NCBI GenBank assembly: GCA_001769385.1 | Contig: MEPB01000037.1 | Location: 76,241-140,240 of the forward strand | From: Bacteroidetes bacterium RIFCSPLOWO2_12_FULL_35_15 | GTDB taxonomy: Bacteria; Bacteroidota; Bacteroidia; 2-12-FULL-35-15 | Direction of reading: 5' to 3' | DNA length: 64,000 nt | Shown here: one piece after another, positions 20,229 through 59,304 of the stretch | Layout of the letters: each line of letters starts with the position of its first letter | Numbering within the stretch: position 1 is the stretch's first letter | Notes under the pieces: generated by a model | The model's database searches: none | What the model was told of the DNA's origin: nothing | What the model saw: only the letters and a program-made list of their open reading frames with translations | Position numbers and translations under genes: made by a program

Positions 20229-20993
20229 TTAAGAACAAAATATAATTTCTTTCAGATCAAATTCTTTTTTTTCATGGGATGAAAGCTCCATTTGAAGTTT
20301 CCCTGAAGAAGAAACACCGGTAATTTTCCCAACAAATTCTTGATACTTTGAGGAATAATTGCTCCACTCTTCAAATCTATATAAATTTTGCAAATAGGCA
20401 TTGTTGATACTCTCCAGCTTATTTGTTTTTAATTGCAAATATCGAGCTTCTATAAATTCGCAAATTTGTTCTATTGCTGGCATTAGTTCAACTTCTTTAT
20501 TGGTAAGTGTTTTAAGAGATGTTGCATTTTTTGTTGTAATAAATTCTGTTTGATTGATATTGATACCGATACCAATTATTGAGCTTTGGATATTGTTTTC
20601 CCGAAGTGTATTTTCAATTAAAATACCTGCAATTTTTTTATCACCAACATAAATATCATTTGGCCATTTTATTTTTATTTTTGAACTTAAGTTATGCGGA
20701 TGTAGCCATTCTGCCATTAAGTCAGCGACAGAAAGCGAAATGATTTTTGTAATCAAAAACTGATTGTCGGCTTGCAAAAAGGAGGGATTCAAAATGAGGC
20801 TCAAAGCTATGTTTTTGTTGGCTTCGCTCTCCCATCCACTTCCTCGTTGGCCTCTTCCGTTTTGTTGATCAAAAGTATAAATTAATGTGCCTTCAACCGG
20901 CTTTATTTGTCGCAACAATTCACTGGCATAACTGTTGGTAGAGGCAACCGAGTTTAAATGAATATTATTTTGTCCGACAAATAAAGTTTTCAT
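20229..20993 (-). CDS. birA: Biotin-[acetyl-CoA-carboxylase] ligase
   Basis: Activates biotin with ATP and transfers it to the lysine of biotin carboxyl carrier protein. The 254 residues include the nucleotide/biotin motif GRGQRG (46-51), IKWPNDIYVGDKKIAGILIE (about 108-127, with the catalytic-region Lys120) and a short C-terminal SH3-like domain. There is no N-terminal winged-helix domain, so it is a monofunctional (class I) ligase and not a biotin repressor. It diverges from rsfS, with 85 bases between the starts. Confidence 0.93.
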   Translation of the reverse strand: MKTLFVGQNNIHLNSVASTNSYASELLRQIKPVEGTLIYTFDQQNGRGQRGSGWESEANKNIALSLILNPSFLQADNQFLITKIISLSVADLMAEWLHPHNLSSKIKIKWPNDIYVGDKKIAGILIENTLRENNIQSSIIGIGININQTEFITTKNATSLKTLTNKEVELMPAIEQICEFIEARYLQLKTNKLESINNAYLQNLYRFEEWSNYSSKYQEFVGKITGVSSSGKLQMELSSHEKKEFDLKEIIFCS

Positions 20994-21016: not shown

Positions 21017-21024
21017 TATTTTTG
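21017..21024 (+). promoter_or_regulatory. Promoter core of the rsfS-ftsH-LUD-cdsA operon
   Basis: TATTTTTG matches TAnnTTTG on the plus strand, 54 bases before the rsfS ATG, and lies in the birA/rsfS divergent region. A clear -33 TTG is not seen at the expected distance. Confidence 0.5.
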
Positions 21025-21078: not shown

Positions 21079-21642
21079 ATGGCAAAAAAGAAAGCAAGTC
21101 CTGTAAAAAAAACAGTAAGCAAAAAACCCGCTGCAAAAAAAGTTGCGGTTACAAAAAAAATTGCAGCAAAAAAAACTGCACCTAAAAAAACTGCAGTAAA
21201 AAAAGTTACAATAAAAAAAGCAGTAATCACAAAAAAGGCAGCACCAAAAAAAATTACAAAACCTGTATCATCCAAAAAAGCAGAGAAGACTGCGATTGAA
21301 AAACTTGTTGATGCAGCAGTGGAGGGTGTTTTAGAAGTTAAAGGAAGAAACATTTCCATTCTCGATTTAAGGAAGATTCATAATCGTGTTTGCGATTATT
21401 ATATTATTTGTCAAGCCGATTCAAATACACAAGTAAATGCAATTGCCGGTTCTGTTGAAGAAATTGTAAAAAAACGAGTTGGTGACAGACCTTATCATAC
21501 CGAAGGGTTTCAAAACGCAGAATGGGTCTTGGTTGATTATGTGACTGTTGTAGTACATATCTTTCAATCACAAATTCGTAATTTTTATAATTTAGAAGCA
21601 TTATGGGCCGATGCAGAAGTTACTAAATTGGCATTTGATTAA
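21079..21642 (+). CDS. rsfS: Ribosome silencing factor RsfS with histone H1-like N-terminal extension
   Basis: RsfS binds ribosomal protein uL14 and blocks subunit joining when nutrients are low. Residues about 73-187 are the RsfS domain (DCYII-type core reads HNRVCDYYIICQAD; PYHTEGFQNAEWVLVDY; VVVHIF). Residues 1-70 are an extra region with 27 lysines, mostly as KK pairs about every five residues interrupted by Ala, Val, Thr and Pro, like a histone H1 tail. Ordinary RsfS proteins are about 105-130 residues long and lack this. The frame runs without break from the ATG at 21079 through both parts. The gene heads the operon with ftsH 21 bases downstream. Confidence 0.92.
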   Translation: MAKKKASPVKKTVSKKPAAKKVAVTKKIAAKKTAPKKTAVKKVTIKKAVITKKAAPKKITKPVSSKKAEKTAIEKLVDAAVEGVLEVKGRNISILDLRKIHNRVCDYYIICQADSNTQVNAIAGSVEEIVKKRVGDRPYHTEGFQNAEWVLVDYVTVVVHIFQSQIRNFYNLEALWADAEVTKLAFD

Positions 21643-21663: not shown

Positions 21664-23739
21664 ATGAGTGATCAAGAACAAAAACCTGAGAATAAAAGTT
21701 TTAAGGATAAATTTCCAAAAAAACCTAACATGCCGAAAACGCCATTTAGTTTTTATTGGATCTATGGTGTAATTGCAGTAGCATTAATTGCAATGCAATT
21801 TTTTAGCTATAGTGGTGGATTAAAAGAAAAAAGCACCACAGAGTTTATTGAAACAATGCTGAAGCAGCACCAGGTTGATAAAATTGTGATCGTTCCTTCT
21901 GAAAACATTGCTGAAATAACTATTAAGAAAGACTTTTTAAAATTGCCTCAATATTCGAAAGATGAACTTGATAAGCATATAAATGGTCCGCATTACAAAG
22001 TTAAAATTGCAAGTGTGGATAAATTTGTGGATCGACTTAACGAAGCACAAAAAGACTTTGAACCGAATCAACGTGTTGATGCGATAAATGAAAACAGAAG
22101 TCAGTGGAGTGATCAGCTCAGTTGGATCATTCCCTTAGTAATAATGATTATCATCTGGATTGTTATTATGCGTAGAATGGGTGGTGGCGCTGGGGGAGGA
22201 CAAATTTTCAATATTGGAAAATCGAAAGCAACCTTATTTGATAAGGATACTAATGTAAACATTACCTTTAATGATGTTGCCGGATTAGAAGGTGCAAAAA
22301 TTGAAATAAAAGAGATCGTGGATTTTCTGAAAAATCCTAAAAAATATACAACATTAGGTGCAAAAATTCCAAAAGGTGCTTTATTGGTTGGACCTCCGGG
22401 AACAGGAAAAACCCTTTTAGCAAAAGCGGTTGCCGGGGAAGCGAAAGTTCCTTTCTTTTCTCTTTCAGGATCTGATTTCGTGGAGATGTTTGTTGGTGTT
22501 GGAGCATCACGTGTTCGTGACCTGTTCCGTCAGGCAAAAGAAAAAGCGCCTTGTATCATTTTTATTGATGAGATAGATGCAATTGGTCGTGCACGTGGTA
22601 AAAACCCTGCGCAAGGAGGAAACGATGAACGGGAAAACACATTAAATCAGTTATTAACTGAAATGGACGGGTTTGGTACAAACAGCGGTGTAATTATTCT
22701 TGCCGCTACCAACCGTGCTGATATTTTAGACAGAGCATTGATGCGTGCAGGTCGTTTTGATCGTCAGATCTACGTAGATATGCCTGATCTGAACGAACGT
22801 AAAGATATTTTTAAAGTGCATTTAAAACCTTTGACATTAGATGCTTCTGTAGATGTAGATTTCCTTGCAAAACAGACACCCGGATTTTCAGGTGCTGATA
22901 TTGCGAATATTTGTAATGAAGCGGCTCTTATAGCTGCTCGTCATGATAAAAAAATTATTGAAAAACAAGATTTCCTTGATGCCGTAGATCGTATCATTGG
23001 TGGGTTAGAGAAGAAAAATAAAATTATTTCAGTACATGAAAAACAAGTAATTGCTTATCATGAAGCCGGACATGCTGCAACCAGTTGGTTGTTGGAACAT
23101 GCATCCCCCCTTGTTAAAGTGACTATTGTACCTCGCGGACGATCATTAGGTGCTGCCTGGTATTTACCGGAAGAACGACAAATTACTACAACAGAACAGT
23201 TGTTGGATGAAATGTGTGCCACACTGGGAGGAAGAGCTGCAGAATCCATAATTTTTGGAAAAATTTCTACCGGTGCTTTGAGCGATCTTGAAAAAGTTAC
23301 CAAACAAGCATACGCCATGATCACTATTTATGGTTTGAATGATAAGATCGGAAACATTAGCTTTTATGATTCTACCGGAGCAAATGAATACGGGTTTACA
23401 AAACCTTATAGCGAAAGAACTGCACAAACAATTGATGAAGAAGTTAGCAAGCTGATTGAAACAGCTTATACCCGTGCTAAAGAAATACTTACAAAAAACA
23501 AAGATTTATTAAAATTATTAGCAGCAAAATTACTTGAAAAAGAAGTAATCTTTAAAGAAGACCTGGAAACAATTTTTGGCAAACGTCCTTTTGATAAAGA
23601 AGATCTACCATTGTTAAAATCAGAAGAAAAGACGGTAGTTGCTTTGGAAGAGAAAAAAGAAACAAGCACGGAAGAGAAAAAAGAAGAAGAAACAAAAACA
23701 GAAAGCGAGCCTGAAAAACCCATAAACACGTTATTTTAA
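21664..23739 (+). CDS. ftsH: ATP-dependent zinc metalloprotease FtsH
   Basis: Membrane-anchored AAA+ protease that degrades misfolded membrane proteins and regulatory substrates. The 691 residues have two membrane helices (about 28-48 and 158-176) around a periplasmic domain, Walker [10 protein letters not shown] (about 242-250), Walker [13 protein letters not shown], second region of homology with [19 protein letters not shown], and the zinc site HEAGH (His466-His470). An acidic Glu/Lys/Thr-rich tail closes the protein. It is the second gene in the operon; the next frame begins three bases after its stop. Confidence 0.97.
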
Positions 23740-58764: not shown

Positions 58765-59304
58765 TTATGCAACTCCGGTTTTTCTTACGCCTTGTGTTTT
58801 TACTTTTGAACTGGCTGTTTTAACAGGTTTTGTATTGGTATCTTTTACCTTTGCTTTTCCTGTTGATTTGGTTTCGGCACTTGCTTTAACTTTTGCTTTT
58901 TCATCTTCTGTTTTCTCTTCCTTTTTTTCAAGTAAGCCTTCTTTTTGAAGAATGTTATACCAGCTCAACACTTTTTTAATATCCGAGGTATGAACTCTTT
59001 CTTCATCATACTCAGCAAAAGCAGTTTTAAAATAGCTTCTAAGTTCAGCGTCAGGTGATTTATGATTAATACCCGGACCACCTTTTTCCTTGTCATAAAG
59101 TTTTTGTAACACTTCTTTCAACGCAACATCATCACCTGTTGAATACATGCTAACATCTTCCAATGCACTCACACGATGAGTTGAATAAGCGGGGATACGC
59201 TTTTTATCGATCAACGATTCTACTATTAGTCCGTTTTTTGTTTGAGCAATTACTTTATAAAGTCCGCTCATTCCTGCAATTGAAATAATTCCGCTTAAAT
59301 CCAT
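58765..59304 (-). CDS. DUF5606 family protein with Lys/Ala/Thr-rich tail
   Basis: A protein of 179 residues. Residues about 1-125 are the Bacteroidota-specific DUF5606 domain, starting MDLSGIISIAGMSGLYKVIAQTKNGLIVESL and with STHRVSALEDVSMYS. The C-terminal about 50 residues are a low-complexity basic tail (KAKVKASAETKSTGKAKVK type). Function is unknown; the first half may be an RNA- or protein-binding small barrel. The tail is a third occurrence in this window of a Lys/Ala-type extension, though less regular than those at 8424 and 21079. Confidence 0.85.
   Translation of the reverse strand: MDLSGIISIAGMSGLYKVIAQTKNGLIVESLIDKKRIPAYSTHRVSALEDVSMYSTGDDVALKEVLQKLYDKEKGGPGINHKSPDAELRSYFKTAFAEYDEERVHTSDIKKVLSWYNILQKEGLLEKKEEKTEDEKAKVKASAETKSTGKAKVKDTNTKPVKTASSKVKTQGVRKTGVA

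Follow-up and report, generated by a model that had tools for sequence, protein, structure and literature searches.

A lysine-rich N-terminal tail under selection for positive charge on the ribosome silencing factor RsfS of a Bacteroidia genus

Ribosome silencing factors are usually regarded as minimal one-domain proteins, whose RsfS domain binds the 50S subunit at uL14 and prevents the 30S subunit from joining. In the window analysed here (the whole stretch of 64,000 nucleotides from contig MEPB01000037.1 of Bacteroidetes bacterium RIFCSPLOWO2_12_FULL_35_15), the rsfS reading frame opens instead with a long segment rich in lysine and alanine. This raises the question of whether such a tail is a real part of the protein, whether it is maintained by selection and what it could do on a factor of the ribosome. 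The features of the locus are collected in Table 1, together with two further genes of the same genome.

Table 1. Coordinates of the rsfS locus (window positions) and of two other genes with polycationic tails
Feature	Position	Strand	Remarks
rsfS	21079..21642	+	187 aa plus stop; ATG start; N-terminal polycationic tail
Disordered Lys/Ala/Val/Thr/Pro tail, residues 1-70	21079..21288	+	27 K, net charge +26, KK every 5-6 residues
Imperfect 15/30-bp DNA repeats inside the tail	21151..21219	+	5-codon units
RsfS/iojap/YbeB domain, residues 77-176	21307..21606	+	PF02410, TIGR00090, alignment to 6sj6, fold match
Conserved 5' leader segment GCAAAGAACGAAATAAAA	21045..21062	+	Leads to the ATG of the tail; sequence conservation across the genus
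TATTTTTG	21017..21024	+	Matches -7 promoter element TAnnTTTG; kept across most of the genus
birA-like biotin-protein ligase gene	20229..20993	-	Divergent upstream neighbour, 32/32 in the genus
ftsH	21664..23739	+	Downstream neighbour, 31/32 in the genus
DksA/TraR-like gene	L265:1178-2251 = contig C33:89677-90750		Flanked by ileS and lspA (both identified from sequence)
DNA topoisomerase I (TopA) gene	L264, contig C19 about 166270-168690		807 aa; last ~45 residues with 19 Lys, net charge +20

The folded part of the protein matched both family models above their curated cut-offs, PF02410 with E 3.3e-30 and 104.6 bits (cut-off 21.6) and TIGR00090 with E 2.5e-30 and 104.6 bits (cut-off 56.9). In S. 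aureus, RsfS contacts uL14 via Glu70, Asp81 and Tyr98 (PMC7125091). An alignment to this protein (6sj6) gave E142, D153 and Y170 as the equivalents; among 27 sequences the first two were invariant and Y170 was conserved in at least 90%. The domain was predicted by AlphaFold2 with pLDDT values mostly of 80-93, and the top Foldseek match was S. aureus RsfS on the 50S subunit (6sj6_9, E 4.2e-11, rmsd 1.6), followed at lower rank by relatives from E. coli and from mitochondria that are bound to assembly intermediates. The 187-aa protein is a genuine ribosome silencing factor, with the same complete domain, predicted fold and uL14-contacting Glu/Asp/Tyr as the RsfS/YbeB/iojap proteins (PF02410, TIGR00090; 6sj6, 4wcw, 2o5a). 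The same domain occurs in MALSU1, the mitochondrial homologue, which sits on intermediates of large-subunit assembly (5ool and others). In MALSU1, too, the domain is preceded by N-terminal sequence, and the domain match starts near residue 85 of 234. That extension, however, is known as a targeting and partner-binding region and not as a Lys/Ala repeat tail.

The tail contained 13 alanines beside its 27 lysines, no arginine and one acidic residue. Pairs of lysines start at residues 3, 4, 10, 15, 20, 26, 31, 36, 41, 46, 52, 57 and 66, and the lag-5 autocorrelation of lysine was 0.55, a value that was equalled in 0/5000 shuffles. A preliminary description of this DNA had counted 27 lysines in the first 70 or so residues, mostly as KK pairs every five residues, and had called the extension histone H1-like in its Lys/Ala composition and joined in frame to a complete RsfS domain. 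Count and coordinates were borne out, the spacing proved to be mostly 5-6 residues, the composition was supported, and the fusion was confirmed by the PF02410 match at residues 77-176. Among 329 predicted proteins from 423 kb of the organism's own genome, the tail was the top Lys/Arg-rich 60-aa stretch, with a Lys/Arg fraction of 0.40 against a mean of 0.19 (sd 0.05). AlphaFold2 predicted it to be disordered (block-mean pLDDT 44-60), with no predicted secondary structure.

The tail shares its Lys/Ala/Pro/Val/Thr composition and its spacing with HC2 and the bacterial histone H1-like proteins (PF07382, NF038053), and it could be read as a nucleoprotein domain of the HC1/HC2 family fused to RsfS. 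Weak matches were indeed obtained, but they lay far below the curated cut-offs: 21.6 bits for HC2 (24 bits in the genome search) against 40, and 23.2 bits for the Burkholderia-type H1-like model against 80. No match to Hc1 (PF07432) was detected in the genome at E <= 1. Moreover, the HC2/H1-like proteins are free nucleoid proteins, whereas here the tail is fused to a folded ribosome factor, and the tails of relatives diverge freely in length as well as in sequence, a pattern that fits a shared composition and not descent. An H1-like domain is therefore very improbable, and membership of a histone family was rejected, the HC1/HC2 scores being under the cut-offs or absent.

Whether the tail is translated at all was considered next to the evidence on the start codon. 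In most RsfS of other Bacteroidia families the protein begins 7-18 residues ahead of the domain, which would fit a real start near residue 70 and an untranslated tail, the alternative raised in the preliminary description. However, no in-frame ATG, GTG or TTG was found in codons 2-80; the first candidate is GTG at codon 81, which falls within helix 1 of the predicted structure (residues 72-86), and a start there would cut this helix. The leader conserved across the genus stops at the ATG of the tail, and the ratio dN/dS of the tail (0.18-0.55 in close pairs, against 0.01-0.08 for the domain) indicates coding constraint. A start near residue 70 is thus scarcely credible. Since there is no internal start and the leader is conserved into the ATG of the tail, the tail belongs to the gene product, barring later cleavage. 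Further upstream, TATTTTTG fits TAnnTTTG, the Bacteroidota -7 promoter consensus, and may represent a promoter element. Gene order around rsfS is constant in the genus (Table 1), and the sole locus at which ftsH was not seen had just 98 bases of downstream sequence covered.

The alignment proposed earlier as a check on the conservation of the tail came out in its favour. Of the 36 genomes that represent the genus, 32 yielded an RsfS, in every case with an N-terminal Lys-rich tail; the four genomes with no RsfS match were not counted as losses. The tails were 55-110 aa long (85 +/- 16 aa, n=32) and had a net charge of +16 to +35, or 0.31 +/- 0.03 per residue (n=32). Characterised RsfS/YbeB/iojap members are without an N-terminal polycation of this size and charge.

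The substitution pattern was most informative in two gap-free pairs of close relatives (L034/L036 and L017/L027). Lysine was changed at none of 57 positions and the other residues of the tail at 35 of 117 (Fisher p 1.4e-7). A neutral simulation with the same number of nucleotide mutations led to 8-10 lysine changes per pair and lowered the net charge to ~22 (from 31) in one pair and to ~17 (from 26) in the other, while the observed charges were 31/31 and 26/25. The positive charge of the tail is therefore under purifying selection. The spacer residues A, V, T, I, P and S swap freely, and in more diverged pairs the lysine positions themselves turn over, in up to 15 of 29 columns, while the amount of charge stays. 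This shows that selection acts on the amount of positive charge and not on a fixed motif or site. It also means that RsfS has a selected function beyond its domain in a genus which always keeps the tail.

These data also bear on the second rival reading, according to which the lineage tends towards low-complexity expansion: A-rich repeats of 15 bp would slip on the ends of several proteins and be tolerated, with weak selection for a soluble and non-toxic product. The imperfect 15/30-bp DNA repeats within the tail are the likely source of its length changes, and the strong variation in length, the AT-rich genome (GC content of 34% over the 423 kb examined) and the presence of tails on functionally unrelated proteins all point the same way. 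On the other hand, lysine codons were kept far beyond the neutral expectation while synonymous change went on, and the tail was lost in 0/32 genomes. Two observations from other families also speak against tolerated expansion, namely tails whose GC content reaches 0.51 and in which AAG and AAA codons are mixed, and a counterpart at the other end of the protein (see below). Taken together, such an expansion seems rather unlikely as the explanation.

Outside the genus, the statement that normal RsfS has no such tail held for most relatives, but it did not hold throughout, as tails recur in several families of Bacteroidia. Long Lys-rich N-tails were found in at least six other family-level groups (f12, f14, f36, f40, f11 and f27), and shorter ones in f29. 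Their length was 36-188 aa, and up to 197 aa in L116; L076 and L116 stand out with extreme tails of 188 and 197 residues, respectively. In a tree of 113 domains, from a class-level sample that is enriched for long frames and whose fractions are no prevalences, the N-tail required 9 changes (7-9 in bootstraps), two of them forced by starred branches. In the AU test a single clade of all N-tailed rows was not rejected (p 0.31). For this reason recurrence is claimed here, with no number of origins, and a count of many independent gains, as the best tree alone would give, was not adopted. In family f16 a Lys-rich tail of ~40 aa was located at the C-terminus of RsfS in all four members read (L011, L071, L085 and L092). 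This version is separate from the N-tails by its position, and it points to the same demand being met at the other end of the protein. Since most Bacteroidia RsfS have no tail, RsfS can perform its core function without one.

What the charge could serve can be approached from the site at which RsfS binds. In S. aureus this site includes bL19 and helix H95 of the 23S rRNA, and Gln, Arg and Lys residues contact the rRNA backbone (PMC7125091). In E. coli, RsfS is present on both immature and mature 50S subunits, where it may serve as a checkpoint late in assembly (PMC13246957). The preliminary description had suggested that a polycation on such a factor could change its rRNA affinity, its contact with the nucleoid or the storage of silenced ribosomes. 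We therefore favour, at about even probability, a tail that acts as a polycationic tether and raises the affinity and the residence time of RsfS on 23S rRNA. The unstructured Lys/Ala tail would be degenerate in sequence, would lie along nearby 23S rRNA, or along other RNA or DNA in crowded cells, and would add non-specific electrostatic affinity for the rRNA around the RsfS site. As a result, RsfS would stay longer on 50S subunits, whether mature or immature. An electrostatic tether without fixed geometry is suggested because the charge is kept while the spacers A/V/T/I/P/S interchange. Both rRNA as the ligand and an effect on affinity or residence time are our inference.

A precedent is offered by the Lys repeats of actinobacterial topoisomerase I, which stabilise the enzyme-DNA complex (PMC7398561). 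As in that enzyme, degenerate H1-like Lys/Ala repeats (KK period 5-6 in the tail described here) with predicted disorder are appended to a protein associated with nucleic acid. The actinobacterial repeats, however, are C-terminal, belong to a DNA enzyme and occur in GC-rich genomes, whereas the RsfS tail is N-terminal, belongs to a ribosome factor and occurs in an AT-rich genome. The tail would work like those repeats without being a member of their kind. Both the RsfS family and Lys/Ala tails as a kind of appendage are already known. A literature search found no paper joining RsfS with Lys-rich tails; the combination of the two, its conservation across the genus and a selection on charge as measured here were all absent from the literature searched.

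A tail of this kind is not specific to RsfS, as was revealed by a survey of 423 kb of the organism's own genome together with targeted searches. A DksA/TraR-like protein of 357 aa carries 72 lysines in its first 195 residues (K/A-rich, net charge +70). Tail composition and the start MAKK are the same as in RsfS of the same genome, while the folded domain differs. The DksA/TraR family acts on RNA polymerase. Throughout the genus this protein has a long frame of 269-389 aa, with one frame longer still, and the DksA-like domain of the genus lacks two of the four cysteines. Long frames recur in several further families, among them some with a tail-less RsfS. The second case is the C-terminal tail of TopA (Table 1), and C-tails of a similar kind were found in the sister species L205, L207 and L211. 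Both K/A tails had escaped the genome search with the HC2 model, which is insensitive to them, and the idea that the RsfS tail is the sole H1-like polycation of the genome was ruled out by them.

The main rival to the tether on rRNA takes up these proteins. It holds that the tail keeps RsfS, with or without the 50S subunit, on DNA or bulk RNA in a nucleoid or RNA condensate, whereby subunits that are silenced or immature would be stored close to the nucleoid, and that DksA-like and TopA bear the same tag for the same reason. Both of these act on DNA or RNA polymerase, and the composition of the RsfS tail is H1/HC2-like. Against this, RsfS is known to bind the ribosome, and no polyanion is closer or more abundant than rRNA. 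In addition, RsfS tails and long DksA frames co-occur incompletely: f12 and f14 have RsfS tails but a short DksA, and f4, f6, f7 and f19 show the reverse. Storage near the nucleoid is accordingly a serious but still unlikely reading. A bolder proposal, which we regard as doubtful, is that RsfS on the ribosome, DksA-like on RNA polymerase and TopA on DNA, as a set of regulators of growth arrest and of the chromosome, share interchangeable polycationic tails which jointly set the location of these factors. Silenced 50S subunits and transcription control would then be gathered in one RNA/DNA-rich compartment in starvation, and a tethering code would replace a dedicated histone-like protein.

The tether on 23S rRNA remains the reading that we prefer for RsfS, although similar tails on proteins of the sister species suggest a more generic role. 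An adenylate-kinase-like protein of 422 aa in L208 and a 2-oxoglutarate:ferredoxin oxidoreductase-like protein of 707 aa in L206 (both named from sequence) have long C-terminal K/A tails, and the known ligands of adenylate kinase and of the oxidoreductase are not rRNA. With tails of this kind also on the DksA-like protein, TopA, the adenylate kinase and the oxidoreductase-like protein, the idea of an appendage special to RsfS is weakened; it is a lineage-wide kind of tag. As judged from the sequences, the similar tails on other regulators of the genus suggest a shared means by which proteins may be retained on RNA or DNA. Their occurrence on RsfS and on other regulators, above all on the DksA-like protein, would bear on the retention of factors at ribosomes or the nucleoid in uncultured Bacteroidia. 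Within the window itself, a DUF5606/DUF6852 protein of 179 aa (58765-59304, minus strand) was observed to have a Lys-rich C-terminal extension of mixed charge.
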